DNA of 40,871 bases from positions 1 through 40,871 of the forward strand of contig JAJTGZ010000033.1 of the NCBI GenBank assembly GCA_021299385.1. Reading direction: 5' to 3'. The translations under genes and the position numbers were made by a program. Positions 6,453 to 38,449 of the stretch are shown here, piece after piece. Numbering within the stretch: the stretch's first letter is position 1; the number at the start of each line of letters is the position of its first letter. The notes under the pieces are model-generated. The model made no database searches and had not been told where the DNA came from. It worked only from the letters and a program-made list of their open reading frames with translations. The stretch is from Phycisphaeraceae bacterium (GTDB lineage: Bacteria > Planctomycetota > Phycisphaerae > Phycisphaerales > UBA1924).

Positions 6453-7622
6453 TCAACGCCCCAGCAGCCCATCCATCCGCCGGCGCATCTCCCGCTCGCG
6501 CTCATCGACCACGCCCGACAGTTCATCCGCCTGGTGGTCGGCGTGGTAACTGCTCCGCACCAGCGGGCCGCTCTCAACCACCTTGAAACCCTTGGCCAAC
6601 CCCGCTGACTTGTACGCCTCAAACTGCCCCGGCGTAACAAACCGCTCGATCGGCAGGTGGTTCCGCGTCGGCTGCAAGTACTGCCCGATCGTCAAGATAT
6701 CGCACGACCCTCGGCCTGCTGCACCCTCTGCTAAAACCTGACCCCCAACCCCTAAAACCTCCGTCCTCTCTAGCAGCTCATCCATCAACCCCAGCACCTC
6801 GTCGTCGTTCTCGCCGATGCCCACCATGATCCCCGTCTTGGCGACCAGCCCCTGCTCCTTGACGCGCCGCAGCAGTTCCAGGCTTCGGTCAAACTTCGCG
6901 CTCGGGCGCACCGCCGGGTACATCCGCCGAACCGTCTCGAGGTTGTGGTTGATGATGTGTGGCCGCGCATCGATGACCATCTGCAGCGCGCCCCAGTTGC
7001 CCTCAAAGTCCGGGATCAGCACCTCGATGCTCAGCCCCGGGCAGGCGTCGCGCGTGCGCGTGATCGTCTCGGCCCAGATCCCCGCGCCGCCGTCGGGCAA
7101 CTCATCGCGGTTGACGCTTGTGATGACGATGTGCCGAAGCCCCGACCCCTGCATCATCACCCGCAAACTCTCGGCCACACGCCTGGGCTCGTCCTTGTCC
7201 AGCCCCGCCGGGCGCCCGGTCTTGACGTTGCAGAACCCGCACGCCCGCGTGCAGGTGTCCCCCAGGATCATGATCGTCGCCACGCCGCGCGACCAGCACT
7301 CACCCATGTTCGGGCACCCCGCCTCTTGGCAGACTGTTACCAGTTTGGCATCGGCCAAAAGACCCTTGAGTTTTTCATACTCCGCCCCGCCGGGCACCTT
7401 GGCCTTCAGCCACGGGGGCTTCTTCCTTGGTGCCAGCTGCTGGTTCCCCTGGGCGTTGTTGAGCACCATGCCCGAGAGCGAAAACGCCGGGGCGTCCAGC
7501 CGCCGAAGCGGGTCCCCGCCGGCCGGCCTGGGGTGCCGGGCGATCGTCTTGGCAAGCGCGGCGGCCAACCCCTCTGCATGGCTTTGCGGGTTGCTCGTCG
7601 GCATCGGTGGGGTGCTGCTCAT
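6453..7622 (-). CDS. lipA: Lipoyl synthase (radical SAM)
   Basis: LipA inserts two sulfur atoms into the octanoyl group on carrier proteins to make lipoate for the 2-oxoacid dehydrogenases and the glycine cleavage system. Both iron-sulfur cluster motifs are complete: the auxiliary cluster Cys98-x4-Cys103-x5-Cys109 and the radical SAM Cys124-x3-Cys128-x2-Cys131. RSSYHAD near the C-terminus carries the conserved serine ligand. The protein has 389 residues against about 300-330 usually. The excess is a roughly 50-70 residue N-terminal extension and a 20-odd residue insertion before DILTIGQYLQP, encoded near 6710-6775. That stretch, with TAAAACCTGACC and CCCCTAAAACCTCC, is unlike the surrounding codons. 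No lipB was seen nearby. The start at 7622 is the longest supported; Met52 is an alternative. Confidence 0.95.
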   Translation of the reverse strand: MSSTPPMPTSNPQSHAEGLAAALAKTIARHPRPAGGDPLRRLDAPAFSLSGMVLNNAQGNQQLAPRKKPPWLKAKVPGGAEYEKLKGLLADAKLVTVCQEAGCPNMGECWSRGVATIMILGDTCTRACGFCNVKTGRPAGLDKDEPRRVAESLRVMMQGSGLRHIVITSVNRDELPDGGAGIWAETITRTRDACPGLSIEVLIPDFEGNWGALQMVIDARPHIINHNLETVRRMYPAVRPSAKFDRSLELLRRVKEQGLVAKTGIMVGIGENDDEVLGLMDELLERTEVLGVGGQVLAEGAAGRGSCDILTIGQYLQPTRNHLPIERFVTPGQFEAYKSAGLAKGFKVVESGPLVRSSYHADHQADELSGVVDEREREMRRRMDGLLGR

Positions 7623-8030
7623 GGGTCGCCAGCAAGTTTAGCGCGATGCACCGGACCCCGCCCCAGGCCCCACCCCCGGCCCCCGACCCCCATCCAAAGC
7701 TCAATCCCCTCGCGCAGTAACTGCGCTAGCCCACCCCAAACGCGCACAGGCCACTCCCACCGCCCCCCCGACTCTCTCTTTCATGCCCCCGCCACGCCCG
7801 GCAAACCCCCATCGACCTGCAACCGAGCCTGGGCGAAAGTCCATCAAGGAGAGAGAACAACAGAAAAGGTTGCTAACCTGTACACAGATCGGCATGGATT
7901 TCCGATCCATGCCACAAGGCACTCGTGCCGGTGGTGGTGCTTTGCTGATGCAAGCAATCCCACCGTTGCCCATTGCTGGGCACCGGTCAGCAGGCACCGG
8001 GGCAGCAGGTTGGATTCAAGGAGCAGGCTC
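7623..8030. other. Spacer upstream of the exopolysaccharide locus
   Basis: This 408-base region lies between divergently transcribed lipA and the export lipoprotein gene. It begins with C-rich sequence of no clear content. From about 7840 it becomes less GC-rich (AAGGAGAGAGAACAACAGAAAAGG), consistent with a promoter or leader, followed by the hairpin listed separately at 7891-7913. No gene could be supported. Confidence 0.4.
7891..7913 (+). promoter_or_regulatory. Perfect inverted repeat in the leader of the EPS/exosortase locus
   Basis: GGCATGGAT (7891-7899), loop TTCCG, ATCCATGCC (7905-7913) is a perfect 9-base palindrome. It is followed by a short GGCAC/GTGCC hairpin (7918-7929). It lies about 118 bases before the export-lipoprotein start. 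With no T-run it is more likely an operator or an RNA leader structure than a terminator. The sequence does not match a riboswitch I recognise. Confidence 0.45.
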
Positions 8031-9842
8031 GTGAGCTACGTCCGTCGCCCGAACACCCCCCAACGCCCGCACCGCTCACCGGCCAAGCTCCTGTGCAGGT
8101 TGGCCCTGGGTGCCACCCTTTTGGTCCCCCTCTGGGCGTGCGAGAACGACTCGTACATGAACCCCTCGGTCGTCGGTCGGTGGGAGGACACGCCGACGCT
8201 GGTGCCCATCCTCGACCGCCTGGCCGTCGTCGAGGGGACCAACAACCCCGACTTCGGGGAGTTCAGCGAGATCACACAGGCCGACCTGATCCCCGAGGTC
8301 GATCCCTACCGCATCGACGCCGGCGACGGCGTGCAGGTCTTTGTCAACGAACTGTTCAACCCCAACCAGCCCGAGACGTACGAGCGCGTCGTCGACCGCC
8401 GGGGGCATATCGACCTGCCCAACATCCCCGCCGTCTTCATCGCGGGCAAGACGACCGACGAGGCCGCCGCCGCGATTGCCGCGGCGTACAAGGCCAAGGG
8501 TGTGCTTAACGAGCCGGTCGTTTCGATCACAGTTCCTGCCCAGCGTCGCCAGACGTTCAACCTCATCGGGGGGGTCAACTCCCCGGGCACCTACAGCATC
8601 CCCAGGCCCGAGTTCCGCCTCCTGGAAGCGATCTCCCAGGGTGGGCGCTTCTCCGAGTATGTCCAGTGGGTCTATGTCATCCGGGGCGTTCCGCTCACCG
8701 ACCGCGCTGCCGGGAGGTATGCGGAAACGACCACGCCCACACCGGGCGTCAACGCCAGCACCCCAGGCACCGGCCCGGCTGTGAACCTCCCCAACGATCC
8801 CAACGCCCAACCCGGTCAGGGAAAGCCCGGCGAGGTCAAAAAAGAGAGCGTTCTGGACCTCATCGAGTCCCTCGGCGGCCCGGAGGCCCAGCCCGCACCT
8901 GCCCCCGCGCCAACACCCACGCCCGCGCCAGCACCTGCCCCCTCCCCAACCCCAGGCATCGCCCCGGGGATGATGCAGCCCGCCCCGGACGCGCCGGTCC
9001 CCGCACGCCCCCCGGTCATCGACCTAGAGGCCATCGCCAACCCCGAGGGCAAGCCCGCCGCCAAGCCCCCCCAGCCGACACCTGCACCCACCCCTACGAC
9101 CGCGCCAACTGAGGCTGAAGCAGGCACCCAAGCCACACCCGCCTCACCGCCGGCAATCGAGCTTCCCCCGACGCTGGGGCGCGCCGATTCTCCAGCCAGG
9201 CCCCCAACGCCCGCCCCGCAGGCGACCGCTACTCCGTCGCCTCGATGGGTCTTTGTCGATGGTCAGTGGGTCCCCGCCGGCGCAGCTTCCTCTAGGGGGA
9301 GCAAGCCGGGCAAAGCCGGCACGCCCAACCCCGCAACCGATGTTCTCTCCCAGCGTGTCATCCGCATCCCGATGAGCGCGCTTTTGGGTGGGTCGGCGAT
9401 GTACAACATCGTCATCCGCCCGGGAGATGTCGTCCGCGTTCCCTCCCCGATGGAGGGTCTGGTGTATGTGGCCGGGCAGGTCGCCAGGCCTGGGCCGTAC
9501 TCGCTGCCGGCCGTGGGCAAGCCGTTGACGCTCATCCGCGCCATCGACTCGGCCGGGGGCTTGTCTGATACCGCGATCCCCGAGCGCGTCGATATCACCC
9601 GGTTTGTCGGTCCTGACCGCCAGGCGACCGTTCGGCTGAACTTCCGGGCCATCGCCGAGGGAACCCAGCCCGACTTGTACATGCGCGAGGGGGACCGGAT
9701 CAACGTCGGGACCAACTTCTGGGCCTTGCCGCTGGCGGTCGTCCGCAACGGGTTCCGGGCCAGCTATGGCTTTGGGTTCATCCTCGACCGCAACTTTGGC
9801 TATGAGATCTTCGGCCCGCAGAATACCGGGTCGATCAGGTAA
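8031..9842 (+). CDS. Wza-type polysaccharide export lipoprotein
   Basis: This is the outer-membrane channel component of an exopolysaccharide export system. The signal peptide ends in a lipobox, PLWAC with Cys37 as the lipidated residue. A polysaccharide-export domain follows (about 85-180: YRIDAGDGVQVFVNELFNP, then VDRRGHIDLPNIPAVFIAGK). A first SLBB-like domain (about 180-225: FNLIGGVNSPGTYSIPRPEF) precedes a long Pro/Ala/Thr linker (about 240-440). A second SLBB-like domain (about 465-560: VYVAGQVARPGPYSLP) ends the protein. The GTG at 8031 is chosen because AAGGAG (8018-8023) lies seven bases before it; the frame is open much further upstream but lacks lipoprotein sense. The 603-residue size exceeds Wza (about 380) because of the linker. 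It precedes the exosortase gene. Confidence 0.88.
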   Translation: MSYVRRPNTPQRPHRSPAKLLCRLALGATLLVPLWACENDSYMNPSVVGRWEDTPTLVPILDRLAVVEGTNNPDFGEFSEITQADLIPEVDPYRIDAGDGVQVFVNELFNPNQPETYERVVDRRGHIDLPNIPAVFIAGKTTDEAAAAIAAAYKAKGVLNEPVVSITVPAQRRQTFNLIGGVNSPGTYSIPRPEFRLLEAISQGGRFSEYVQWVYVIRGVPLTDRAAGRYAETTTPTPGVNASTPGTGPAVNLPNDPNAQPGQGKPGEVKKESVLDLIESLGGPEAQPAPAPAPTPTPAPAPAPSPTPGIAPGMMQPAPDAPVPARPPVIDLEAIANPEGKPAAKPPQPTPAPTPTTAPTEAEAGTQATPASPPAIELPPTLGRADSPARPPTPAPQATATPSPRWVFVDGQWVPAGAASSRGSKPGKAGTPNPATDVLSQRVIRIPMSALLGGSAMYNIVIRPGDVVRVPSPMEGLVYVAGQVARPGPYSLPAVGKPLTLIRAIDSAGGLSDTAIPERVDITRFVGPDRQATVRLNFRAIAEGTQPDLYMREGDRINVGTNFWALPLAVVRNGFRASYGFGFILDRNFGYEIFGPQNTGSIR

Positions 9843-10088: not shown

Positions 10089-12053
10089 TTGCAGAGTCCG
10101 CAGATGCACGTTGACGACCACGCCCCGAGCCAGCCGGTGGTGGCAGCGCCCACCGCAGTGGGCGGTGCGCGCGTGCCGGCGGCGGAAGCGGCTGGGGGGT
10201 TGGTCCCCCCATGGCCTGTGGTGGCGGTTGTTGGGCTGGTGGGGTTGGCGTTTATTGGGCTCTTCCACTTTGTGCTGATCCAGCAGGGCCGGCTGAGTTG
10301 GGGCAACGCCGACTGGCAGCACTCGTTTGTGGTCCCGGTGATCAGTTTGTACATGCTCTGGCAGTGGCGTCAGAAGATTTTGTCGTTGCGTCCGGTGCTC
10401 TTTTGGCCGGGGTTGATCCCGCTGCTGTTGAGCGTGCCGTGTTATTTGCTGTTCCAGGTTGGTGCGTTTTCCAACCACATGGGCCAGGGCATCTCGATGC
10501 TTTTGGGGTTGTTCGGTGTGCTGCTGCTGCTGCTTGGGCCGAGGATGATCCAGCCGGTGTTTTTGCCGTTGGCGTTTTTGGCCTTCGGGATCACCGTCAG
10601 CGAGATGATCATGATCGAGATCACCTTCCGTCTGCAGGGCCTGGCGGCGCACGGGGGGTACGTGGTGCTGAACCTGCTGGGTGTGGTTACGGATATAGAC
10701 GGGCACACGCTGCGTGTAACGCACCCGCGGACGGGCGTGGTGATCCCGCTGAACATTGCCGAGGCGTGCTCGGGGATGCGGATGCTGATCGCGTTTTTGG
10801 CCCTGGGCGTGGCCGTGGCGCTGGTTGGGCTTAAGCACTGGTGGCAACGGATCGCGTTGATCGCCTCGGGCGTGCCGGTGGCGCTGGTGATGAACATTGT
10901 GCGTGTGGCGGTGCTGGGGCTTTTGAGCCTTCAGAACCCCGAGTGGGCCAGGGGGCAGGCGCACATGTTCATCGGCTTTGTGCTGCTGGTGGGTGCGTTT
11001 ATGCTGTTTTTAGGCCTCGCGTGGGTGCTGCAGAAGGTCGTCAACGAGGATGACGCCTCGGTGTCAGCCAAGGCGCTTGCCGACAAGGGGAGCAAGGCCA
11101 CGGCCAAGGCCCCGGCGGACAAACCGTCGTCGGCGGTTGCGTGGCCGGCGGTGGGGTGGTCGGTGTTGCGCCAGCCCGGCGTGCTGGCCGTGCTGGTGGT
11201 GCTGGTCTTCTCAGCCGTGAGCATCGGTGGCGCGATCGCGGCGTTGGGGATCAACCTGCGCAAGTTGCCGATCCAGGCGGCGGGGGACCGCAAGGTCGCC
11301 GCGATTGTGCGCGAGACGGAGAACTGGGTGCAGGTCGGGCAAGACGAGGTGCTCTCTGAGGAGATGCTCGAGGAACTCGGCACGCACAACTACCTGACGC
11401 GGACGTACATCCAGCGCTCGGCCGACAAGACGCGGAGCGGTGGCCCGGCGGTGGTGAACCTGCACCTGACGTACTACACCGGGATGATCGACACGGTGCC
11501 GCATGTGCCCGAGCGGTGCATGACGGGTGCGGGGTTTGCGATGGTCTCAGCGCCCAAGGTGTTGGCGGTCCCGTTGCAGCGGTCGCGGTGGGTGCTCGAC
11601 GAGGATGCCTCAGCCGTGGCGGGTGTGCCGATCTATGGCGCCAGGACGGGGCCTTACAGCGACCTGCCGATGCGCGTCCGGCTGCCTAGGGGGATCGAGG
11701 ATTTGCAGATGAGTTTCAGTTCCTTTGCCAACGGGGGTGGGGGAGGCACGGCACACGCGGGGTACTTCTTCATCGCCAACGGGGGCTGGACGGCCTCGGC
11801 TAAGGACGTGCGGGTTCTGGCCTTTGACCTCAAGGCGGATTACGCTTACTTCCTGAAGGTGCAGATCAGTTCCTCGTCGGTCGCGTCGGCAGAGGAGTTG
11901 GCAAAGTTGGGTGGGAGTCTGCTCTCGGAGTTGCTCCCGGAGATCGCCCGGACGACGCCTGACTGGATCGAGGTCCAGCGGGGTGCGTACCCGCCCGATA
12001 ACCCTCGCAAGGGTGGATCGGATTCGGCTCGGGGGGAGCCTGCGAAGCCCTGA
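10089..12053 (+). CDS. Exosortase fused to an EpsI-type domain
   Basis: Exosortases are membrane cysteine transpeptidases thought to cut PEP-CTERM-like sorting tails and pass the proteins to the envelope. Residues about 42-315 form a polytopic membrane domain. It holds the proposed catalytic triad: Cys227 in EACSGMR, Arg272 in VMNIVRV and His292 in AHMFIGF. A charged, Lys/Ala-rich linker (about 318-355) and another membrane segment (about 362-385) lead to an EpsI (DUF3485) domain. That domain contains HVPERCMTGAGF (His472, Cys477), the family's conserved H-x-P-E-x-C. EpsI-type proteins often accompany exosortases in exopolysaccharide loci. The export lipoprotein, giant TPR protein and Wzz/kinase neighbours fit this. 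No PEP-CTERM-type substrate was seen in the window. The TTG start is discussed under the ribosome site. Confidence 0.9.
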   Translation: MQSPQMHVDDHAPSQPVVAAPTAVGGARVPAAEAAGGLVPPWPVVAVVGLVGLAFIGLFHFVLIQQGRLSWGNADWQHSFVVPVISLYMLWQWRQKILSLRPVLFWPGLIPLLLSVPCYLLFQVGAFSNHMGQGISMLLGLFGVLLLLLGPRMIQPVFLPLAFLAFGITVSEMIMIEITFRLQGLAAHGGYVVLNLLGVVTDIDGHTLRVTHPRTGVVIPLNIAEACSGMRMLIAFLALGVAVALVGLKHWWQRIALIASGVPVALVMNIVRVAVLGLLSLQNPEWARGQAHMFIGFVLLVGAFMLFLGLAWVLQKVVNEDDASVSAKALADKGSKATAKAPADKPSSAVAWPAVGWSVLRQPGVLAVLVVLVFSAVSIGGAIAALGINLRKLPIQAAGDRKVAAIVRETENWVQVGQDEVLSEEMLEELGTHNYLTRTYIQRSADKTRSGGPAVVNLHLTYYTGMIDTVPHVPERCMTGAGFAMVSAPKVLAVPLQRSRWVLDEDASAVAGVPIYGARTGPYSDLPMRVRLPRGIEDLQMSFSSFANGGGGGTAHAGYFFIANGGWTASAKDVRVLAFDLKADYAYFLKVQISSSSVASAEELAKLGGSLLSELLPEIARTTPDWIEVQRGAYPPDNPRKGGSDSARGEPAKP

Positions 12054-12188
12054 CGATGGGGTGCGTGTTGGGGATGGGGGGTGGGGGGCGGGGTTGGTGC
12101 CGGGATCGGTCGATACTGCCCCGGCGTGTTTGGAGGTCATGGTCAATCAACGGGTCGGGCAGGCCCCTCGTTGCGAGCAAAGGACGTT

Positions 12189-15100
12189 ATGGCATCGAAT
12201 GTGAACAAGAAGTTTGTGGTCCTGCTGGCGGTTGGGACGCTGGTGCTGGTGGGCCTGTCGGCTTTGCTGCTGTCGTTTGGTATCCCCAGCGCCCGGGAGC
12301 ACGCCCAGGCGGGGGACGCGCTGATGGCCAAGGGGGAAGCGGTCAAGGCGGCGGACAGGTACGCCAAGGCCGTGAGCAAGGAGAGCAACAACGTTGAGTA
12401 CATCGGCAAGTGGATCAAGGCGATGTCGTCGATCACGCCGGTGGGGAGGCAGGAGTACACCGACCGGTTCCGGGAGTTGGTCGGGGCGATGAACCGCGTC
12501 GCGGAGGTCAAGCGCACGGACTTGTCTGCGCACCGGGCGATCTTGGACCCGACGCTGGCGGACCTGCGGCGTGGGGGTGGTAGTGATCAGGTGGCGGCGG
12601 GCCTGATGCAGCAGGTCGAGCGTTCGATGAAACTGATGCCGGCGGGGGACAAGAACGCCGACGGGCTGCGCCGGTATCGCGGGCTGGCGCGGGTGGCGTT
12701 GCTCTCGGGTGGGCAGCGTCTGAGCGATGAGGAGTTGGCCCAGGCCCGCGAGGACCTCGAGGCGGCTTTGGCGTTTGACCAGAGCGACGAGATGTCCGCG
12801 GCGGGCTTGACCGATTACCTGCGCTTGATGTCGCTGCGGGCGCGCACGGGCAACGACCCGGAGGGTGCCGCCACGCTGCTGGGCGAGGCTCGCGCGAAGA
12901 TCGATGCGTTTATTGAGCGTCAGCCCGGCTCGGCGGTGGCGCGTGCGGCGCAGTTGAACGTGCGTTTGGCAGAGTTGGCGGCCTCGGGGCCGGGGATCAG
13001 CGGGGCGGAGGTGTCGGCGGCGGTTGGGCCGTTGGTTGAGGGGTTGCTGGCCAGCATCGAGCAGGCGGACCCGGCGAAGGTGGACCTGCCGACGGTGCTG
13101 CTGGCAGCGGACGCCGCACTCGGTGCCCGCGTGCCCGACGCTGTGGCGCGAGCGACGGTGGTGCTGGACAAGGTGGTCGCGGCGCGGCCTGGGGAACCGA
13201 TGGCGCAGTACCTGCGGGCGTCGTTCTTGCACGGCTCGCAGCAGTACCGGCAGGCGGCCGACGCGTTCGGCAAACTTGCCGAGATGCCCAACCTGCCGGT
13301 GGGCTTTAACGGGATGGTGCTGTGGGGTTTGCGCGACAGCGCGGCGGTGCGCCGGGTTGATGCGCTGCTGGGGGTGTGGGAGCAGGCCAAGGAGCCTGCA
13401 CAGCGCCAAACGCTGCTGGCGGAGGTCAAGGCCGCGCGGGAGGGCGTGCGTGCGCGGGCGTCGGTCGATGAACTGGCCAAACTGTTGATGGACGGGAAGG
13501 TGGCGTTGGCTGAGAACGACCTGGCCGGGGCGCGGAAGTTGCTTGCGCAGTACAACCAGCGTGTGCCGACGGTGAACACCGACGCGCTGCTGCTGCTGGC
13601 GCGGGTGCTCGAGCGTCAGGGATTGCAGGGCGAAGCCCGGCAGTGCTATCAGAAGATCATCGACGCCCGGCGTGCGAACCTCTTGACGTACGTGCAGAAG
13701 GCGGCTCTGGAGATCGAGCTGAAGAACTACAAGGTGGCGTACAACGACCTGCAGAGCGCGCTGGCCTTTGCGCCCGACAACGAGGCGATCAAGAAGCAGA
13801 TCCAGAGCGTGGTGGCGGTGATGGGGGACGCGCGCGGGGCGTTGCCCGGCGCTGAGCAGGTTGCCGACCCGTTGACGAGGCTGTGGGCGGAGGCGGAGAA
13901 CCTTGCCAACCAGACCCCGCCGGACTTTGCGGGCGCGGCAGAGAAACTCAAGGAGGCGCGCCCGCTGGTGAGCGAAGCGCGGCAGTACATGGTGATGGCG
14001 CGGATGCTGTTGAACTTCAACAACATCCCCGAGGCCTTGGCAACGGTGGCCGAGGGGGTGGCCAAGTTCCCCGACGATGCTTCGCTGGCCGAGCTCAAGA
14101 AGGCGTTGGAATCGACCGACCCGGTCGCGGACGCGAAAGCGCGGATCGAGGCGTCGAGCCTGTCGGCTGCGGGCAAAGAGATCGAGTTGTCGCGGCTGTA
14201 TGCGCGTGCGGGCAAGCAGGACCTCGCGGCCGAGCACATGGACAAGGCCGAGGCTTTGGACAAGGACAACCCGGTGGTGATCGGCACGCGGTTCGAGCAG
14301 GCCCTTGCCAAGAAGGACGTTGGCAAGGCTCAGGAACTGGCCGGTCGGGCCAAGGTGTTGGACCTGGACAAGGCGGGCGGGAAGGTTTATGCCGCGCGCG
14401 TGCTGCAACTGGAGGGCAAGCCCGGCGAGGGAGCGTTGCTCGTGCAGCAGGCGGCGGAGGCGGACCCTGCCAACCCGGGTCTGCACCGGCTGCTGGGGCA
14501 GTTGTACCTTGGCATGGGGGATTTGCCCAAGGCATTGGCGTCGTTGGAGCGGGCGTTGCAGATTCAGCCGAGGGACCCGCAGACGCTGGCGTTGTCGATG
14601 CGTGTGCTGCTGGCGATGGGTCGTGCGACGGTGGCGCTCGAGCGTGGTCGGGAGGCGTTGAGGTTTGGGATCAGCGAGCCGGAGTTTGTGCAGTTGTGGC
14701 TGACGCTTGAGTATGAGGTGGGGGACAAGGCGCGTGCGGTGCAGGGGCGGCAGGAGATCTTCGCGCGCAACCCGCAGGACGTGGAGAACGCCTTTGCGCT
14801 GGCGACGATTTTGGTGCAGGAGCAGAAGGCCGAGTTGGCCGAGCCTGTGGTGGCGTCGCTGGAGGGCAACCTCGACCGTGCGCTCGGGGACGCGTTGTTC
14901 GGGGCGGGGGACTTTGCCAAGAGCCTGGAGGCCTATGGGCGGGCGCGGGCGAGCGTGAAGGAGGACCGTGAGGGTTTGCTGGTCAAGCGGATGATCGAGT
15001 GCAACCTCCGGCTGGAGCGGTTGGAGGAGTCGGAGAAGTTGCTGGCCGGGCTGGACGTGGACAAGACGGCCGACGTGCAGGTGATGCTGCTGGGCGCGGA

Positions 15101-16499
15101 GGTGGCGCAGCAGCGTGGGGACAAGGCGCGTGCGCGTGCGTTGCTGGACCGGGCCGTGGCGGCGGAGCGGAACGCCGAGTTGCCGTTGATCCGGCGTGCG
15201 GACACGAACATGGCGGACGCGAAGTTGCTCGAGGACGCGCTGGCGGACTACGAGGCGGCTTTGCGTATCAACCCGCAGAGCACGCGTGCGCGGCTGATGC
15301 TGGCCGAGTGCTACCTGCGCAAGGGGGACGCGCAGCAGGCGCTCGGGCAGTTGCAGTCGGGGCTGCGTCTGGACCCGCTGAACGCGGATTGGCGGAGCGC
15401 GGAGGTGCAGTTGCTGCTGAACACCAGCCGGGGTGGGGAGGCGCTGGCATCGCTCAACGAGATGATGGGCAAGACGACGGACCCGCGGTGGGCGCAGATG
15501 GCCGGGTCGATCTATATGGCCGCGGGGGATGCAGGCTCGGCCGTGAAGATGTTCGGGCGTGCGTGGGAGGGTGGGCGCGACCCGGCGTCTGGCAAGGGGC
15601 TGGTCGATGCGTTGCTGGCGCTCAAGCCGATGGACCTGCAGGGGGCCAGGAAGGTGGTTGATGCGCCGGAGTTCAAGGCGGCGACGGACCCGGTCTCGCG
15701 GCTCTCGCGGGCGCGGGTATCGATGCTGGAGAACAAGCCCGCCCAGGCGGCCGAGGACGTCAGGGGTGTGCTGGGGATGGTGGACCTGACGGTGGTGCGG
15801 AACGGGTTTGTGCTTATGGAGGAACTGCGGCGGGTGTGGGAGTCGCCGCAGGAGCTGCTCTCGGCGGTCGAGTCGCTGCAGCCGGAGGGGGGGTGGACAG
15901 AGCCGATGCGTGTGCAGCTGGCGATGCAGCGTCTGCGTCTGCCGGGGGAGAAGGCCAGGGGTCTGGCGGAGTTTGAGGAACTGGCAAAGTCATCGAGCAA
16001 GGAGATCGCGGTTCTCAGCGCCAGCGTGCTGGGGACGACGTACTTCAATGACGGGGACGCGGCACGGTCGGTAGCGGCGTACCAGCGCGGTTTGGTGCTG
16101 GACGCGAACAACAAGGAGCTGCTCAACAACATGGCGTATGTGATGAGCAAGGGGCTCAAGCAGCACGCCGAGGCTTTGCCGCTGGCGCAGCGTGCGGTGG
16201 AGCAGGACCCTGCGAACCCGAGCCTGATCGACACGCTGGGGGCGATCAGGTTGGAGCTTGGGCGTGTGGAGGAGGCGGGTGCGGACTTTGAGCGTGCGCG
16301 GTCGTTGACGGCTGACGCGCTGGTGCAGACGATGCCGACGGTGCACCTGATCGAGGTTCGGCTGCGTCAGGGGAAGGTTGCCGAGGCGGACGTGCTGCTT
16401 AAGGAGTTAGAGGAGGGTGAACGGCGTGACCCTCGGGTGAGGCAGAGTTATCAGGCCGAGATCGATCGTGTGCGTGAGTTGCGCAAGCAGGCACGCTGA
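12189..16499 (+). CDS. Giant membrane-anchored TPR protein of the exosortase locus
   Basis: The product has 1436 residues. A single membrane anchor (about 9-31) follows a short basic start. Nearly all the rest is helical repeat of TPR type, for example PGLHRLLGQLYLGMGDLPKA and a set near the C-terminus (YFNDGDAARSVAAYQRGLVL, then NNKELLNNMAYVM). No catalytic motif was seen. Long TPR proteins such as PrsT occur beside exosortases in other bacteria, where they may scaffold polysaccharide synthesis or export; this one is analogous in place, but orthology is not shown. The start ATG 12189 has AAAGGA (12179-12184) four bases upstream and directly precedes the anchor. Codons strongly prefer G at the third position. 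It is 135 bases after the exosortase gene and probably co-transcribed. Confidence 0.85.
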   Translation: MASNVNKKFVVLLAVGTLVLVGLSALLLSFGIPSAREHAQAGDALMAKGEAVKAADRYAKAVSKESNNVEYIGKWIKAMSSITPVGRQEYTDRFRELVGAMNRVAEVKRTDLSAHRAILDPTLADLRRGGGSDQVAAGLMQQVERSMKLMPAGDKNADGLRRYRGLARVALLSGGQRLSDEELAQAREDLEAALAFDQSDEMSAAGLTDYLRLMSLRARTGNDPEGAATLLGEARAKIDAFIERQPGSAVARAAQLNVRLAELAASGPGISGAEVSAAVGPLVEGLLASIEQADPAKVDLPTVLLAADAALGARVPDAVARATVVLDKVVAARPGEPMAQYLRASFLHGSQQYRQAADAFGKLAEMPNLPVGFNGMVLWGLRDSAAVRRVDALLGVWEQAKEPAQRQTLLAEVKAAREGVRARASVDELAKLLMDGKVALAENDLAGARKLLAQYNQRVPTVNTDALLLLARVLERQGLQGEARQCYQKIIDARRANLLTYVQKAALEIELKNYKVAYNDLQSALAFAPDNEAIKKQIQSVVAVMGDARGALPGAEQVADPLTRLWAEAENLANQTPPDFAGAAEKLKEARPLVSEARQYMVMARMLLNFNNIPEALATVAEGVAKFPDDASLAELKKALESTDPVADAKARIEASSLSAAGKEIELSRLYARAGKQDLAAEHMDKAEALDKDNPVVIGTRFEQALAKKDVGKAQELAGRAKVLDLDKAGGKVYAARVLQLEGKPGEGALLVQQAAEADPANPGLHRLLGQLYLGMGDLPKALASLERALQIQPRDPQTLALSMRVLLAMGRATVALERGREALRFGISEPEFVQLWLTLEYEVGDKARAVQGRQEIFARNPQDVENAFALATILVQEQKAELAEPVVASLEGNLDRALGDALFGAGDFAKSLEAYGRARASVKEDREGLLVKRMIECNLRLERLEESEKLLAGLDVDKTADVQVMLLGAEVAQQRGDKARARALLDRAVAAERNAELPLIRRADTNMADAKLLEDALADYEAALRINPQSTRARLMLAECYLRKGDAQQALGQLQSGLRLDPLNADWRSAEVQLLLNTSRGGEALASLNEMMGKTTDPRWAQMAGSIYMAAGDAGSAVKMFGRAWEGGRDPASGKGLVDALLALKPMDLQGARKVVDAPEFKAATDPVSRLSRARVSMLENKPAQAAEDVRGVLGMVDLTVVRNGFVLMEELRRVWESPQELLSAVESLQPEGGWTEPMRVQLAMQRLRLPGEKARGLAEFEELAKSSSKEIAVLSASVLGTTYFNDGDAARSVAAYQRGLVLDANNKELLNNMAYVMSKGLKQHAEALPLAQRAVEQDPANPSLIDTLGAIRLELGRVEEAGADFERARSLTADALVQTMPTVHLIEVRLRQGKVAEADVLLKELEEGERRDPRVRQSYQAEIDRVRELRKQAR

Positions 16500-16640: not shown

Positions 16641-18857
16641 ATGAGTAGCGCACCGACAACCCGTACGCCCCAATCCCCGGCCCGTCCTGCCCCGGCTAGC
16701 CCGATGGGGCTGGTGCCGATCGACCCTGTGCGGCTGCTGAGGCGGTACTGGGTGGCCCTTGTGGTGGCGGTGGGGGTGGGTGCGGTGATTGGTTTGCTGG
16801 CGAACTATGTGCTTGGAAAGCTCACGCCGAGGTGGAAGACGGAGGTAACGTACCAGGTCAGCCCCCCGATGCAGGACCCGAACAAGGGTGGTCCTGTCGT
16901 GGAAGACAAGGACGAGATGGAGCGTTTCATGCTCACGCAGGTGCGTGTGATGATCAGCGACCGGATCTTGCGTGAGGCACTGGTCAAGAACGCCGAGCAG
17001 TTCAAGGACAAGAAGATCATCGGGTGGGGGCAGCGGATATTGGACGATCAGGGTGAGGTGAACGTCGGCAACGGCCTGGCTGAGTTGCGGAATATCGTCG
17101 GGTCCAGCGTGCTGACGGGGACGAACCTGCTGCAGTTTACGGTAACGACCAACAGCCCATCGGACTCGGCGGCGATTGCCGCCACGATCCACGATCAGTT
17201 CTGGAGCGACTGGAAGCAGCAGTCGGGGAACATGGGCAGCGAGAACCGTGTGCCGATCGACAGGGAGATCGCCCGGCTTCAGGCGGAGTTGGCCCGGATC
17301 GATGCGCAGCGCGACAAACTGCTGCAGAACCAGAACATCAACGATCTGCAGAGCGTCAGCGGCTCGGCGGAGGACATCTTGATCGGCTCGCTGACGCCGC
17401 AGGTGTCGGCGGCGGCCGAGCAGGTGAACCGGTACGAGACGCTGATCAGGCAGTACGAGGCGATGTCGGCCGGGCCTGGGGGCGTGGTGGAGTTCCCGGC
17501 AGAGCTGCGGGACGTTGTGGAGCGCGATCCGGTGGTCGTCGAGAGCAAGCAGCGTGTCAACGCACTGCGGAACGAGCTGCGGGCCAACACGCAGTTGGGT
17601 GCCGAGCACCCGTTCAACAAGTCGCTCAGGAGGAGGATCGAGAGTTCCGAGAGCGAGCTGGCCCTGACCCGGCAGGAACAGTTGAGCAAACTGTTTGACA
17701 GCGAGCTGGACCGTGCCCGCCGGGGGGCTGATGCGGCCAGGGGGGTCTACAAGGAGCAGAGCGAAAAACTCGCGACGGCGACGGCCCGTAAACAGGACAT
17801 CACGCGGACGCTGGCGACCTATGAGCAGCTGAACTTGGACCGCGAGCGCATCGCGGCGGAGATCGACCAGAACAAGCAGGCCCTGGCGGCGATCCAGCGG
17901 ACGACGAACGTCGGTGGTGGCTCTTCGCGGTGGGACCGTCTGCGGATACTGCAACCGCCTGCCAAGCCTGACCAGCGGGCCTTCCCGCGGCTGTCGATGA
18001 CGCTGCCGGTGGGGGTTCTGCTCGCGCTCGGGCTGACGGCTGGGTTCTTGGTCGCGCGGGAGCTGCTTGACCAGCGGATCAAAGGCCCGTCGGACCTGCT
18101 GACGATCCCTCGGCTGAGGTTGCTGGGTGTGATCCCGGCGACGGGGGTGGAGGGTGGGCCGTCGGCGCCGCCGGAGTTGGCGTTCAAGGATGCGTCGATG
18201 GGGGCGATTGCCGATGCGTACCGGCAGGTTCGTGTGCCGCTGGTCAAGCGGATGCACCAGGCGGGGTTCAAGAGTTTGCTGGTGGTGGCCGCGTCGCCTG
18301 GGGCTGGGGCGACCAGCGCGGTGTGCAACATCGCGACGGGTTCTGCGGCGTCGGACCAGCGTGTGCTGATGATCGATGCAAACTTCCGCCGGCCCTCGCT
18401 GCACAAGGTCTTCAAGCTTGGGGAGGGGCCCGGGCTGGGGGAGGTGCTTGCGCGGAAGACGACGGTGGACCAGGCGGTGCAGCAGACGAGCGTGCCGAAC
18501 TTGTGGTTGCTGTCGGCCGGGGCGGCGGCGAACCGTGGTGTTCCCGAGCGTTTGAGCACGGCGTTGATGTCGGAGATTCTGGCGGAGGTGGGGGGGAAGT
18601 TTGATCTGGTGGTGATTGATTCGTCGCCGGCGACGATCGCGGGGGATGCGTTTGCGCTGGCCAACCGTGTGGATTGTTCGGTGCTGGTGGTGCGTGCCAA
18701 GAGCGAGAAGCGCGGGCTGATCGCGCGGGTGCGGGACCAGTTGGCCGAGACGCACGGGGAGTTTTTGGGTGTGATCGTCAACGGCGTCGAGGTGATGCGC
18801 ACCGGGTACATGCGTAAAAACATCGAGGCGGCCAGCACGTATTCCAAGAGCGCGTGA
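16641..18857 (+). CDS. Wzz-domain/BY-kinase-like protein with degenerate P-loop
   Basis: The 738-residue protein has the architecture of a polysaccharide co-polymerase fused to a bacterial tyrosine kinase. It has a membrane segment at about 36-58, a long coiled-coil periplasmic region (about 70-435), the RILQPPAKP motif and a second membrane segment (about 450-475). A MinD/BY-kinase-like ATPase domain occupies about 510-738. In that domain the Walker A site reads ASPGAGATS (about 551-559), where the P-loop lysine of the usual GxGKS/T is alanine. The A' motif (IDANFRRP, Asp579) and Walker B (LVVIDSSPA, Asp660) remain. The C-terminus (TGYMRKNIEAASTYSKSA) has only two tyrosines, not the usual tyrosine cluster. 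It may regulate chain length without kinase activity. ATG 16641 follows AGGA by about seven bases. Confidence 0.85.
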   Translation: MSSAPTTRTPQSPARPAPASPMGLVPIDPVRLLRRYWVALVVAVGVGAVIGLLANYVLGKLTPRWKTEVTYQVSPPMQDPNKGGPVVEDKDEMERFMLTQVRVMISDRILREALVKNAEQFKDKKIIGWGQRILDDQGEVNVGNGLAELRNIVGSSVLTGTNLLQFTVTTNSPSDSAAIAATIHDQFWSDWKQQSGNMGSENRVPIDREIARLQAELARIDAQRDKLLQNQNINDLQSVSGSAEDILIGSLTPQVSAAAEQVNRYETLIRQYEAMSAGPGGVVEFPAELRDVVERDPVVVESKQRVNALRNELRANTQLGAEHPFNKSLRRRIESSESELALTRQEQLSKLFDSELDRARRGADAARGVYKEQSEKLATATARKQDITRTLATYEQLNLDRERIAAEIDQNKQALAAIQRTTNVGGGSSRWDRLRILQPPAKPDQRAFPRLSMTLPVGVLLALGLTAGFLVARELLDQRIKGPSDLLTIPRLRLLGVIPATGVEGGPSAPPELAFKDASMGAIADAYRQVRVPLVKRMHQAGFKSLLVVAASPGAGATSAVCNIATGSAASDQRVLMIDANFRRPSLHKVFKLGEGPGLGEVLARKTTVDQAVQQTSVPNLWLLSAGAAANRGVPERLSTALMSEILAEVGGKFDLVVIDSSPATIAGDAFALANRVDCSVLVVRAKSEKRGLIARVRDQLAETHGEFLGVIVNGVEVMRTGYMRKNIEAASTYSKSA

Positions 18858-19215
18858 TATGGATCACCGCTGAATGTTGTGCGGTCGAAGTGGCTAGCCC
18901 CACCCCTGCCCCTCCCCTCGGGGGAGGGGTTCTGCGCGAGAAATATTGGCGATGCGTCTAAGGCCCATGGCGGGGTGGGGCGGGGTGGGGCGGGGTGGGG
19001 TGGGGTGTGAACCGGGGTTGGGGTGCGAGCGTAAGCGGGGTGCTGGTGCCCGGTTTTGTTTAGCCCGGCGTGCCTTTGGTTGGCTTGGCCGCTACGCTTG
19101 CCGCGTTCCGTTCTGGAAGCGTGTGGGTGGGGGTGGCTGAGAGTGTGTGTGTTCCCGCGCGGGTTGACGCGGCGGGTGTGTTGGGATTGTTGTTTGGCCC
19201 TATCGAGAAGACCGC
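18858..19215. repeat. Spacer with inverted family 2 repeat and G-rich decamer array
   Basis: The 358 bases separating the exosortase and SPFH operons hold no gene. They contain an inverted copy of the G-rich family 2 repeat (18898-18932). They also contain three exact head-to-tail copies of CGGGGTGGGG (18971-19000) followed by TGGGGTG. The runs of four G could form G-quadruplexes on the + strand. The promoter of the SPFH operon probably lies in the remaining 150 bases. I could not pick out its boxes. Confidence 0.7.
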
Positions 19216-21312
19216 ATGAAAGGCGACCATCGTTCGTACGCACGGGCCACGTCCACGAGCCTTCTGGGGCTGGCGGCGCAGGTGACCTTGGGGTTGGGGC
19301 TGCTGATCTATGCGGTGGTTGGGCGCGACAACGCGGCGTTTAGCGCCAGTTTGCATGTGCTGGTCATGTCGCTGGTCTGGGTGGTGCTGGTGGTGGTCTT
19401 TGACCAGCACCGGCGCGAGCGGCTGGAGGCCCTGGAGGCCGAGAGCCTGGACGCCTCGGCGGCACGGGAGGCATCGGTCTTTGGGACCAGCAGCGACGAC
19501 CTGCGGGTGAACGCCAAGCGCCTGGCGTGGATGCACCGGGTGCTGGTGCCCGGCGCGAGCGTGCTGCTGGCGTTGCTGCTGATCGGGCTGGGGGTATGGC
19601 GTTATCTGGATGCAACGCGTGCAACGACTGCGAAGACTGGGACCGATGTGGCGACTGGTACCGAGGTGATTCCGAGCCAGTTGGATTCGTTTGTGGGCCT
19701 GCCGCTGCGTGGGTGGGCGATTGCGCTGGGCCTGGGCCTGGCGGTGGTTGGGTTCGTCTTTGCCCGGTACTGCTCTGGGATGGCCCGGCAGGGTGTGTGG
19801 GGGTTGCTGCGTTCGGGTGCGGGCGCGGTGGTGTGTGTTTCGCTGTTTGGGCTGGCGATTGCGCTGGGGCAGTTTGCGGAGATTCTGGGTGCCGACAAGA
19901 TCAGCCGGTGGCTGCTGGTGGGGTTCCCGATCGCGTCGGTGGTGTTGGGCGTTGAGGTGCTGCTGAACTTTATGCTCAACCTCTACCGGCCGCGGAAGGC
20001 TGGGGAGTTGCCCAGGCCTGCGATGGAGAGTTGGCTCCTGGCGTCGGTGGCGGCGCCGGATCAGATTGCGCGGTCGGTGGGTGGGGCGATCCAGTATCAG
20101 TTTGGTGTGGATGTGTCGGGGTCGTGGGCGTATGCGAGGCTGCGGGCTTGGCTGCCGAGGTTGGTGGTGCTGGGGATCGCGGCGTTGTGGCTGATGACGG
20201 CGGTGACGGTCGTTGGGCCTGATGAGCGTGGGGTGCGCGTGCGGCTGGGTGAGCGGCTTGGTGAGGTGCCGCCTGGGCTAGCGCTGGAGTGGCCTTGGCC
20301 TGTGGGGAGGATTGAGAAGGTGCAGGTGACGGAGTTGCAGTCGATCGCGCTGGCGACGCCCAGGCCGCCGGAGAAGGTCAAGCATGTGCTGTGGACGAAC
20401 GACCACCAGGTCAAGGACGAGACAAAGTTGCTGGTGCGTACGGCCAAGAGCATCGGCGGGACCGATGATGCCCGGTCGTTGATCGTTGTCGAGGTGCCGA
20501 TGACGTTCCGGGTCAAGCAGGTGGCTGGTGCGGGTGGTGGTGATGGGTTTGAGTTGGGCAAGTATGAGGGTCTGGCGGTGCCGGCGGCGCGGGACAACTA
20601 CATCCGCGCGGTGGCCAAGCGTGAGGTGCTCCGGTTTTTGACGACGCTGGACGAGGACCAGATCATGGGCGCCCGGCGGACAGAGGCGGGCGCGGAGCTC
20701 AAGAAGCGGATCAGCGCGGCGCTGGACGGGATCAACTCGGGCGTCGAGGTGGTGTTTGTGGCGATCGAGGGTGTGCACCCGCCGCGTGGGCCCGAGGGTT
20801 CGACGGCGTTGTCGTACGAGTCGATTGTCAGCGAGCAGGTGCGTGCGACGGCGGTGAAGCAGTACGCGGAACTCGAGGCGACGGCCCAGCTCATCAAGGC
20901 TGCGGGGTCGGTGGAGGCGGCGCGAGCGATCGTTGCGGAGATCGACCGGCTGGCGGAGCTGACGGCGGCGAAGGCGAGCGAGGGTGAGGTGAACGCGCAG
21001 CAGGCCAGGCTTGATGCGTTGATCACCGCGGCCGGTGGCGAGGCGGCGCAGATATTGGCTCGGGCGCAGGCGGATCGGTGGACGCGCGTGATGGCCGCGC
21101 GGGGGCGTGCGGAGGCGTATGCGGGCCGGCTGGAGGCGTTCAACGCGAACCCGGGGTTGTACATGTACACGGCGTACCTGGACACGCTGACGGATGTCTT
21201 TAGGAACACCCGGCTATACATCGTGCAGGACCAGGTGGAGGACCTGCGGATGCAGATGGACCTCAAGGACCTCGGCTCGACGGTGGACGTGTTTTCGAGC
21301 GAGAACAAGTGA
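19216..21312 (+). CDS. Polytopic SPFH/HflK-like membrane protein
   Basis: The 698-residue protein has two parts. Residues 1-310 contain six predicted membrane segments (about 15-35, 44-62, 108-128, 166-186, 198-218, 231-256). A seventh (about 313-333) leads into an SPFH/band 7 domain, starting GPDERGVRVRLGERLGEVPPG. The SPFH part continues through a helical, Ala/Glu-rich stretch (about 535-640) and ends with DTLTDVFRNTRLYIV, typical of HflK-type proteins. Canonical HflK has one membrane segment and about 420 residues, so the N-terminal half is an unusual addition I do not recognise. HflK/C proteins form large membrane cages around the FtsH protease. Two more SPFH genes follow. ATG 19216 is preceded by a GAGAAG site. 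Confidence 0.8.
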   Translation: MKGDHRSYARATSTSLLGLAAQVTLGLGLLIYAVVGRDNAAFSASLHVLVMSLVWVVLVVVFDQHRRERLEALEAESLDASAAREASVFGTSSDDLRVNAKRLAWMHRVLVPGASVLLALLLIGLGVWRYLDATRATTAKTGTDVATGTEVIPSQLDSFVGLPLRGWAIALGLGLAVVGFVFARYCSGMARQGVWGLLRSGAGAVVCVSLFGLAIALGQFAEILGADKISRWLLVGFPIASVVLGVEVLLNFMLNLYRPRKAGELPRPAMESWLLASVAAPDQIARSVGGAIQYQFGVDVSGSWAYARLRAWLPRLVVLGIAALWLMTAVTVVGPDERGVRVRLGERLGEVPPGLALEWPWPVGRIEKVQVTELQSIALATPRPPEKVKHVLWTNDHQVKDETKLLVRTAKSIGGTDDARSLIVVEVPMTFRVKQVAGAGGGDGFELGKYEGLAVPAARDNYIRAVAKREVLRFLTTLDEDQIMGARRTEAGAELKKRISAALDGINSGVEVVFVAIEGVHPPRGPEGSTALSYESIVSEQVRATAVKQYAELEATAQLIKAAGSVEAARAIVAEIDRLAELTAAKASEGEVNAQQARLDALITAAGGEAAQILARAQADRWTRVMAARGRAEAYAGRLEAFNANPGLYMYTAYLDTLTDVFRNTRLYIVQDQVEDLRMQMDLKDLGSTVDVFSSENK

Positions 21313-21394
21313 TGGCCTGCCGGGCCGAGGGCGCGGCGGGTGGATGGGTTGGTGCGGTGTTGTGAGTTGATGTTGATTTACACGGGTTAGACCT

Positions 21395-22411
21395 ATGCAA
21401 AAGCCACTGCGTATTTTCGTTGCCCTGGTCGTGCTGCTGGCGATCCTGGCGTTCATGATGACGTTCACCGTCCGGTTTACCGAGGCGGCGGTGGTAACGA
21501 CCTTCGGGCGGGCGACCGAGAGGGACGTGATCAAGGAGGCGGGGCTGAACTTCAAGATGCCCTTCCCGATCCAGTCGGTTACCAAGTATGACACGCGGCA
21601 GCGGTATGTCGAGACGCGGAGCGAGACGCTGGCGACGGCGGACAACCGGCAGGTGATCTTGCAGAGTTACATCGTCTGGCGCGTCGTTGACCCGCTCCGG
21701 TTCTTTCAGAGTTACGGCAACGTCGGGTCGCGCGAGGATGAGCATGTGCGTGCGGCCGAGGAACTGCTGCGGGCGAAGTTGCGCAGCGCTCTGGCCGAGA
21801 CGAGCCAGTTTAAGCTGACGGACCTGCTGACGACCGACGCGGGTGGGAGCAAGCTGCCCGAACTGGAGGCGCGGGTGCTGGCGGCGATCACGTCGGGGGC
21901 GGGCAGCTCGGCGCTGGCGGCATCAGGGATCGAGGCGGTGGTGGTGGGGATCAACAGCATGGAGCTGCCCGAGAGTGTTACCGAGCAGGTCTTTAAGCAG
22001 ATGGAAGCGCAGAGGCGGACGATCGCGGGGAAGGCTGCCAACGAGGGGACGGCGGCGGCGGCAACGATCCGCAACTCCGGTGAGGAGTCTGCGAGGAAGA
22101 TACGGAGCTTTGCCGAGCGGCGGGCGGATGCGATCCGCGGGCAGGCCGACAGTGATAGCGCGCCGTACCTGGCGCTGCAGAGCAAGGACCCGAGGCTGGC
22201 GGTGTTTTTACAGAACATCCGGTTCATGCGTGATGCGCTGAGCAAGCGGACGACGCTTGTGCTGCCGACGAGCCTGCCGGGGTTGCACCTGTTGGACCCG
22301 AGCATTGCTGAGAAGCTTGGGCAGGGTGAGATCCCGGAGCCCAGGGGCGTCGGTGAGACGGGTGAGAAGAAGGACGCCAAGCCAGCCGATGAGAAGGGGG
22401 GCGTGCGGTGA
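21395..22411 (+). CDS. hflC: HflC-like SPFH membrane protein
   Basis: This 338-residue protein has one N-terminal membrane segment (about 6-27), followed by an SPFH domain (TEAAVVTTFGRATERDVIKEAGLNFKMP, described in part: FT-E-A-A-V-V-TTFG then K-M-P-F-P). The middle has the helix region with SFAERRADAIRGQADS, a feature of HflC where the conserved ERRADA-type stretch sits. The C-terminus includes FLQNIRFMRDALSKRTTLVLP, whose pattern matches the HflC end. HflC and HflK together regulate the membrane protease FtsH; no ftsH is in the window. It lies 82 bases after the first SPFH gene. Its stop overlaps the GTG of the next gene by four bases, so those two are translationally coupled. Confidence 0.85.
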   Translation: MQKPLRIFVALVVLLAILAFMMTFTVRFTEAAVVTTFGRATERDVIKEAGLNFKMPFPIQSVTKYDTRQRYVETRSETLATADNRQVILQSYIVWRVVDPLRFFQSYGNVGSREDEHVRAAEELLRAKLRSALAETSQFKLTDLLTTDAGGSKLPELEARVLAAITSGAGSSALAASGIEAVVVGINSMELPESVTEQVFKQMEAQRRTIAGKAANEGTAAAATIRNSGEESARKIRSFAERRADAIRGQADSDSAPYLALQSKDPRLAVFLQNIRFMRDALSKRTTLVLPTSLPGLHLLDPSIAEKLGQGEIPEPRGVGETGEKKDAKPADEKGGVR

Positions 22412-23820
22412 GCGATCAGATACAGGAACCAGCGGGCGCAGGTGAGGCTGCGGGTGCAAGCCCGGCGATGGTGCGTCGGCGTGGGGCGAGCGTGCAGTTG
22501 CGGGCCAGCGAGGGCGCGGTGCGACCCGAGGAGAGCGCCAACCAGGCGCTCGGTGAGGCGCTGCGTGTGGTGTACCGGTTTTTACAGGTGGGGATGCTGA
22601 TTTTGATCGGCGTCTTCCTGCTCTCGGGTTTGCAGAGCGTGCAGGAGGGTGAGCGCGGGGTGCGAGTGAGCATGGGGCGGGTGGTGGCTGATGATCTGAT
22701 GCCGGGGTTCCAACTCTCGCTGCCGAGGCCGTTGGGGGAGATCATCAAGGTGAACGTTGGGAACCGGAGTTTGGACGTCAAGGAGCAGTTCTGGCCTGCG
22801 CAGGGGGACCCGGCGCAGCGGTTTGCCGACGACTCGGTGATTGCGAACTCTGGGCGTGGGAAGCTGGACCCTGCACAGGACGGGATGTTGTTGACGGGTG
22901 ATTTTTCGATCGCGCACGCGACGGCAAAGGTGGAGTATGCGCGGGACCCGGAGAAGGTCAGGAAGTTTGTCTCGACCGTGCGCGACGAGGTGGCCGAGCA
23001 GGGGATGGTGCTGTCGGCGGTGCGTCAGGGGATGGTGCGTGCCTCGGCGGGGGCGACGATCGACCAGTTCCGCAAGGAGCAGACGGTGCAGCGGCTGGCG
23101 CAGGAGATCGCCCAGCAGCAGCTGGACAAGATGGGCAGCGGGCTGACGATCCGGAGCCTGGTGATCGACCGGCGGATGATGCCGCCGAACTTGATCCGGA
23201 TTTTTAATGAGGTGGACAACTCGATTGCCAAGAGTGCTGAGGAGATCAATAAGGCGAACCAGGAGCGTCAGGCGAAGCTCTCGGCGGTGGCCGGGGACGC
23301 GGCGGAGGATTTGCTGCGCCTGATCGACGCGTACGACCACCAGACCACGGCCGGTGAGACGGCCAAGGCGGAGGCGACGCTGGCGGAGATCGACCGGCTG
23401 CTCTTGGGTGGTGCGATCGCTGCCGACGGGCTTCGGCCTGGGGCTCGGGTAACCGGCGAGGCGACGGGGATTCTTTCGACGGCGCGTGGGGACGGGACGC
23501 GGACGCTGGCGCGGGCGCAGGCGTCGGCCCGGCTCTTTGATGCCAAGCTCGAGAACTTCAAGGCCAACCCGGGCGTGGTGCTCACGAGCGATTGGGCGGA
23601 TGCGTTTGCGCAGTTTGTCGGGCGCGACAGCGTGCAGACGTTCATGCTGCCGCCTGGGACCAAGACGCTGGAGCTGCTGGTCAACCGCGACCCGGAGGTG
23701 CAGAAGGAGCAGGAGCGCCTACGCAACGAGCAGATCCGCAGCGAGCGCGAGCGTGAGGCGGCCAAGAGCGCGATCGAACGCGGGCTGATGACCTCGGACC
23801 CGGGCGCCCCGCCGCGGTAA
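22408..23820 (+). CDS. hflK: HflK-like SPFH membrane protein
   Basis: This 470-residue SPFH protein has a cytoplasmic N-terminal stretch (1-55), a membrane segment (about 58-76), then VQEGERGVRVSMGRVVADDL starting the band 7 domain, similar to HflK. The middle contains RKEQTVQRLAQEIAQQQLDK and FNEVDNSIAKSAEEINKANQ, a helical SPFH extension. The end is charged (RSEREREAAKSAIERGL). The start is GTG 22408, overlapping the hflC-like stop as GTGA, which fixes it. HflK usually precedes hflC in bacteria; here a polytopic SPFH protein precedes and an HflK-like one follows. The ABC genes come next, suggesting the trio works with the transporter. Confidence 0.82.
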   Translation: MSDQIQEPAGAGEAAGASPAMVRRRGASVQLRASEGAVRPEESANQALGEALRVVYRFLQVGMLILIGVFLLSGLQSVQEGERGVRVSMGRVVADDLMPGFQLSLPRPLGEIIKVNVGNRSLDVKEQFWPAQGDPAQRFADDSVIANSGRGKLDPAQDGMLLTGDFSIAHATAKVEYARDPEKVRKFVSTVRDEVAEQGMVLSAVRQGMVRASAGATIDQFRKEQTVQRLAQEIAQQQLDKMGSGLTIRSLVIDRRMMPPNLIRIFNEVDNSIAKSAEEINKANQERQAKLSAVAGDAAEDLLRLIDAYDHQTTAGETAKAEATLAEIDRLLLGGAIAADGLRPGARVTGEATGILSTARGDGTRTLARAQASARLFDAKLENFKANPGVVLTSDWADAFAQFVGRDSVQTFMLPPGTKTLELLVNRDPEVQKEQERLRNEQIRSEREREAAKSAIERGLMTSDPGAPPR

Positions 23821-23866
23821 GAACCACACCCACACACATCCGCACTTGGTCAGATGAGGAGAACCG

Positions 23867-25096: not shown

Positions 25097-25104
25097 TGAT
25101 GAGT

Positions 25105-25139
25105 GGTGAGCGATGAGCGATGAGCGATGAGCGATGAGT
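25105..25139 (+). repeat. Heptamer tandem repeat (GATGAGC) between ABC genes
   Basis: Five GATGAGC-type units lie in the 78-base gap between the ATPase stop and the permease ATG. The first 30 bases are identical to the inverted array at 91-120. Because it sits in an operon spacer 35 bases before a start codon, changes in copy number could alter the spacing. Confidence 0.8.
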
Positions 25140-25174
25140 AGTGCTGTGGGTGGTGTTGGTTTGAGGGTGTTTGT

Positions 25175-27175: not shown

Positions 27176-27211
27176 ACAGTGCGTGGGTGTGCGAGCACGA
27201 AGGGCTTTTGC

Positions 27212-29203: not shown

Positions 29204-29252
29204 GAGCCTTTACGCTTGATCGTTCCATGCCCAGCGCGGGGGCAGGTCGAGC

Positions 29253-29308
29253 GGGTTGCCAAGGGCGGGGCACCGAAGGAACCCTTCCCGCTTGGGCGTT
29301 GGCAAGCC
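29253..29308. terminator. Imperfect inverted repeat between convergent operons
   Basis: GGGTTGCCAA (29253-29262) and TTGGCAAGCC (29299-29308) form a stem with a perfect 7-base core (TTGCCAA/TTGGCAA) and one mismatch. GGGCGGG and CCCGCTTGGG between the arms can extend or rearrange the fold. It lies in the 108-base gap between the two convergent operons, where a bidirectional terminator is expected. No T-run accompanies it. Confidence 0.4.
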
Positions 29309-29311
29309 GGC

Positions 29312-38377: not shown

Positions 38378-38449
38378 GGTCCCATCGTCCAACGGCTAGG
38401 ACGCGACCCTTTCAAGGTCGAGATGAGGGTTCGATTCCCTCTGGGATCA
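38378..38449 (+). tRNA. tRNA-Glu (anticodon TTC)
   Basis: The acceptor GGTCCCA pairs with TGGGATC. The anticodon arm GACCC..GGTC carries loop CTTTCAA with anticodon TTC, and the T arm AGGGTTCGATTCCCT is intact. The discriminator is A38449. The 3' CCA is not encoded. It lies between clpS and the HAD phosphatase gene. Confidence 0.95.

Follow-up and report, generated by a model that had tools for sequence, protein, structure and literature searches.

Locus and gene neighbourhood

The window, by which we mean the whole stretch of 40,871 nucleotides analysed here (contig JAJTGZ010000033.1, Phycisphaeraceae bacterium), carries at 16641..18857 on the forward strand a gene for a Wzc-like PCP-2a protein of 738 aa with a probable pseudokinase domain. 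With the NCBIfam model TIGR01007 the protein reaches 117.2 bits (cut-off 108), and a PDB search with the protein sequence matches the solved structures of CapAB, BceF, VpsO, Etk and Wzc. Three genes precede it on the same strand: an ORF with a Wza-like export protein (Poly_export, SLBB; 6945..9842, the true start probably lying after about 7.7 kb), an exosortase fused to an EpsI/DUF3485 domain (10089..12053; Pfam EpsH 7.5e-42, DUF3485 2.7e-7) and a PrsT-like TPR protein (12081..16499). This succession of Wza-like exporter, exosortase/EpsI, TPR protein and Wzc is kept in related loci throughout the class, in lineages with the P-loop lysine (K-bearing) as well as in those without it (K-less), and thus supports the orthology of the proteins compared below. 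Wzy_C-like matches in the window genome fall under the curated cut-off, which leaves the polymerase partner uncertain.

A lipoyl synthase gene (6453-7622, reverse strand) points away from the export operon. The two lie together in 59 of 116 related loci and have no obvious functional link. About 110 bases past the stop codon of the wzc-like gene lies a G-rich tandem repeat (18969-19041, GGCGGGGTGG and variants). Downstream of the operon lies a run of three Band_7/SPFH-domain genes, of which the first scores just under the Pfam cut-off, and then come genes for a GldA-like ABC ATPase and an ABC-2-like permease (19216-27175, forward strand); this cluster was not seen beside related loci. Three long, putatively coding ORFs at 27179-32544 (forward strand) have no Pfam match, and two tRNA genes are located at 1021-1095 and 38378-38449 (forward strand).

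Architecture and motifs of the Wzc-like protein

An AlphaFold2 model built on 50 sequences (mean pLDDT 87) predicts two TM helices around a large periplasmic part, fused to a cytoplasmic P-loop domain. This is the PCP-2a layout and agrees with the alignment to full-length Wzc; at a pTM of 0.52, the relative placement of the domains is uncertain. The first TM region (residues 28-61, 16722..16823) comprises predicted helices 29-35 and 37-61 and the invariant residues D28 and G51, the periplasmic part covers residues 62-450 (16824..17990), and the second TM helix is predicted at residues 451-476 (17991..18068). Although no Pfam Wzz model matches the window protein even at E-values up to 10, its predicted fold aligns with full-length Wzc K540M structures over residues 26-738, so the earlier description of an intact Wzz part holds for the fold and not for the Pfam models. 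The kinase core is modelled with a pLDDT of about 95 and has a BY-kinase fold: 2ved, the CapAB K55M mutant, ranks first among the structural matches (Z 34.8 over 252 residues), 3la6 reaches a Z of 34.3, and Foldseek gives concordant matches. A model of the kinase domain folded from its single sequence had a mean pLDDT of 40 and was discarded.

As a yardstick for the catalytic motifs we used the BY-kinase consensus from the cited papers and general knowledge of the family. The reading frame and the P-loop motif ASPGAGATS were correctly given in the original prediction. Residues 550-559 read AASPGAGATS (18288..18317, on the forward strand like all features of this gene), with PGAGATS where BY-kinases have PGEGK[ST], and the pattern GxxGxGK[ST] is absent. 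The in-frame codons are G554 at 18300-18302, A555 at 18303-18305, G556 at 18306-18308, A557 at 18309-18311 and T558 at 18312-18314; the position of the P-loop lysine is thus taken by Ala557 (codon GCG), as had been claimed. Asp579 and Asp660, said to remain, are indeed kept (97% and 100% in the order). What had been overlooked is Asn581 (18381-18383) in the Walker A' motif VLMIDANFR (18363..18389), which stands in place of the second Asp, equivalent to D564 in E. coli Wzc. Instead of hydrophobic-DxDxR, the motif reads DAN-F-R, i.e., DxN. Walker B (DLVVID, 18603..18620) is a regular hydrophobic stretch ending in Asp660, followed by SSP where TPP is usual.

Outside the Walker motifs, the EX2RX2R ring-contact motif occurs as D525AYRQVR531 (18213..18233), with Asp at residue 525 against Glu in 99% of the order; R528 is found in 100% and R531 in 76% of the order. 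Residues 629-636 (18525..18548) no longer show the PPNP[AS]E motif that is usual in this segment, with order-specific changes at 630, 632, 634 and 635. The C-terminal tail (18801..18854) ends with GYMRKNIEAASTYSKSA and is predicted to form a helix at 722-737. Its sole tyrosines are Y723 and Y734, so that the tyrosine cluster, described before as nearly absent, is in fact cut to two; these two are practically invariant in the order (99% and 100%, with N727 at 96%), a point which that description missed.

Distribution and history of the lysine loss

Whole-genome searches recovered an ortholog in all 100 genomes of the family (best E <= 2.3e-75) and in 141 out of 151 genomes of the order (E < 1e-50); of the ten genomes outside this threshold, seven are less than 90% complete and three are 91-97% complete. 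The resulting order set comprises 182 distinct orthologs from six families of Phycisphaerales-type MAGs, and family counts depend on even genome sampling, with many of the genomes being MAGs. Residue 557 is A in 73 of these orthologs, T in 58, S in 20, V in 16, G in 8, C in 4 and N in 3, while neither K nor R occurs in any of the 182. An ortholog from the genus of the window genome (59% identity) shows AGSGATS at the P-loop. In other families of the class, aligned through a profile derived from sequences of the order, 50 sequences carry K (33), R (13), A (2) or T (2), this set including one weak match (family c21) that is maybe no ortholog. K occupies the position in all 23 homologs taken from the phylum outside this class and in all 20 paralogs from genomes of the order. 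The alignment within the phylum that had been proposed as a check therefore confirms a clade-wide loss. Asn581 is distributed differently: it is found in 99% of the order and, in the same class-level alignment, in essentially all (100%) class orthologs, whereas the phylum set has D in 100%. We conclude that the change from DxD to DxN came first and the lysine was lost later.

In a tree of 104 sequences, from which columns 557 and 581 had been removed, the order forms one branch (SH-aLRT 100). By this comparison of sequences, the loss is an ancient state common to the order and not a local event; census and tree together rule out a recent or strain-specific loss. On the tree, position 557 must have switched at least 11 times between K, R and small residues. 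Outside the order, one further family and single members of two others have small residues too, so the lysine was probably lost more than once. Several sister families show K replaced by R at this position (L125, L129, L130, L131, L133, L135, L141 and others), an exchange that apparently arose more than once. The titles Leptolyngbya sp. PLA1 and Vicinamibacteraceae bacterium PLA1, given to two records with a Phycisphaerales-type operon, are probably misassigned.

The mean pairwise identity of the kinase core is 0.432 in the K-less order versus 0.431 in the other families of the class, which mostly have K or R, and exceeds that of the periplasmic part in the order (0.215). For the cytoplasmic part, dN/dS lies between 0.04 and 0.16 (NG86, 14 close pairs). 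Judged from these values, the kinase domain is under strong purifying selection and is not decaying; core identity equal to that of K-bearing relatives and the low dN/dS exclude decay. Besides D660 and Y734, G556 is invariant in the order, and T/S558 (100%), N581 and R583 (both 99%) are practically fixed. The acid at 555 (D/E to S/A), Thr549 and the PPNP motif around 630-635 disappeared along with the lysine, while E/D at 689 was gained, and so was R632 in four of the six families (73% R in the order, N elsewhere).

Interpretation and known systems

The order-wide loss, the second changed catalytic residue, the reduced tail and the strong purifying selection make the assignment as a pseudokinase well supported at the level of sequence comparison. 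The domain lacks catalytic residues and the Tyr-rich tail, as is characteristic of BY pseudokinases. The original suggestion that the protein may have become a pseudokinase was thus right in kind and too local in scope, since the state is ancient and extends over the order. As the domain is tightly conserved apart from the lysine, it probably plays a structural part without phosphorylation. We regard it as rather probable that the protein is a single-chain PCP-2a of an exosortase-linked exopolysaccharide export operon, the kinase domain of which has been dead since the common ancestor of the order and is kept as a structural module.

The BY-kinase domain would have turned into a catalytically dead pseudokinase in that ancestor and would be incapable of autophosphorylation. 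It may form a cytoplasmic ring that holds the PCP oligomer. Wzc K540M is a stable octamer that binds ADP-Mg (PMC8285477), and CapAB K55M, which retains ADP-Mg through purification, crystallises as an octamer (PMC3795738). In non-phosphorylated Wzc, tail tyrosines inserted into the site of the adjacent subunit hold the oligomer together (PMC8285477), and the Wzc octamer becomes less stable upon phosphorylation (PMC11986026). Since the lysine mutants form octamers and non-phosphorylated Wzc is tail-docked, we infer that the natural K-less proteins are unphosphorylated and ring-competent. The ring state would resemble that of unphosphorylated Wzc, with each tail docked on the adjacent subunit; this docking is drawn by analogy, the tail here being predicted as a helix. 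Mg-nucleotide may be bound in this state, which is plausible because both lysine mutants still bind ADP-Mg. The protein would then assemble and come apart around the polymerase and Wza under some control other than a tyrosine phosphorylation cycle. The pseudokinase would act as the scaffold, as has been proposed for the BY pseudokinase EcpK (PMC12004946). Two points count against this main reading: the two (nearly) invariant tail tyrosines would fit a remaining phosphorylation role, and the polymerase partner is weak in the window genome.

The same pocket could also serve as a nucleotide sensor, in which ADP/ATP-Mg is held by Thr558, both acidic residues and the backbone of the P-loop, and ring stability follows the nucleotide state with no transfer of phosphate. 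The (nearly) invariant Gly556, Thr/Ser558, Asp579 and Asp660 and the nucleotide bound by the K-to-M mutants of CapB and Wzc (PMC3795738, PMC8285477) are in line with this reading, which we hold possible but rather unlikely: the acid at 555 and the PPNP motif went along with the lysine, so that the pocket may have changed its use. A related and similarly doubtful view is that the site was rebuilt and not just lost, as the small residue at 557, S/A at 555, the acid at 689 and R632 in four families might indicate, and now acts as a nucleotide- or ligand-binding, non-catalytic switch for ring assembly of a phosphorylation-independent single-chain PCP.

Readings that retain phosphorylation appear improbable. 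If another kinase phosphorylated Y723 or Y734 in trans, the cycle could persist without catalysis by the protein itself. The conservation of both tyrosines would fit, as would the low-molecular-weight phosphatase-fold proteins in 100 of 100 family genomes; being present in every one of them, however, this fold is uninformative as evidence for a partner, and no phosphatase was found in the window operon. Moreover, no further BY-kinase-type domain (E <= 1e-10) was found in 45 of the 100 family genomes, among them the window genome, so these have no BY-kinase partner available, and Wzc is controlled by a cluster with many more tyrosines than the two single ones here. In the window genome, the TIGR01007 profile at this threshold matches the window protein only; a candidate second kinase with 35% identity over only 121 residues was rejected as apparently ParA/MinD-like. 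Slightly less credible still is an active kinase in which a relocated basic residue replaces the lysine, as in WNK kinases. R632, R685 and R691 are enriched in the order, but R632 is missing from two equally lysine-less families, R691 and R696 occur about as often in K-bearing relatives, and the comparison of the order with these relatives found no relocated lysine common to the whole order. Asn581 in place of the active-site Asp and the missing acid at 555 also argue against this reading. We give practically no credence to a sequence error or a decaying pseudogene, for which nothing was found in favour and which the ortholog census refutes. The error at 18294-18314 that had been named as a possible refutation does not account for the alanine: from Lys (AAA/AAG) to GCG at least two base changes are needed, so one sequencing error is no explanation. 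Orthologs from six families agree, the frame is intact and dN/dS is low.

With E. coli Wzc, the window protein shares the domain order, the fold over residues 26-738, the ring motif and an adjoining Wza-like exporter. Wzc has GxGK, DxD and a tyrosine-rich tail and autophosphorylates, whereas the window protein has lost the K, carries DxN and keeps two tail tyrosines. The lab mutants CapAB K55M, the best structural match, and Wzc K540M lack the equivalent lysine, but these are engineered single changes with an intact DxD and tyrosine tail. EcpK of Myxococcus xanthus (PMC12004946) has a BY-kinase fold without catalytic residues, a link to PCP-2 and a helical C-terminus as well; it is a separate protein in which none of the three Walker motifs survives and the tail lacks tyrosines, while the window domain is fused and keeps most of the pocket. 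HfsB/HfsA of the Caulobacter holdfast, as far as described in PMC12004946, resembles our reading as a phosphorylation-independent PCP-2 with a pseudokinase, although formed by two separate proteins. A PCP joined to a dead kinase-like domain within a single chain, as here, is found in R. leguminosarum PssP2 (PMC4182512) and, according to the citation in PMC12004946, in S. meliloti SMc01795 and others. By its published description, PssP2 is without Walker A, A' and B, whereas here only specific positions are changed, throughout an order. BY pseudokinases are hence a known kind, as EcpK, HfsB and fused examples have been described. New within the literature searched are the order-wide fixation, the stepwise series from K over R to small residues in one class, the earlier change of DxD to DxN, and a mostly retained pocket with two fixed tail tyrosines. 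Our search, which covered few subscription papers, found no paper on lysine-less BY-kinases in Planctomycetota.

Current models have PCP-2 proteins work by tyrosine phosphorylation cycles. Here, a whole order appears to run its Wzc-type protein, often the only one, without phosphorylation chemistry. The intermediates in the sister families (K, R or a small residue, with DxN throughout the class) form a natural series in which to ask what part of the cycle is required. From a practical point of view, the locus is also a case of database mislabelling, as TIGR01007 calls the window protein a tyrosine autokinase with a score above its cut-off.
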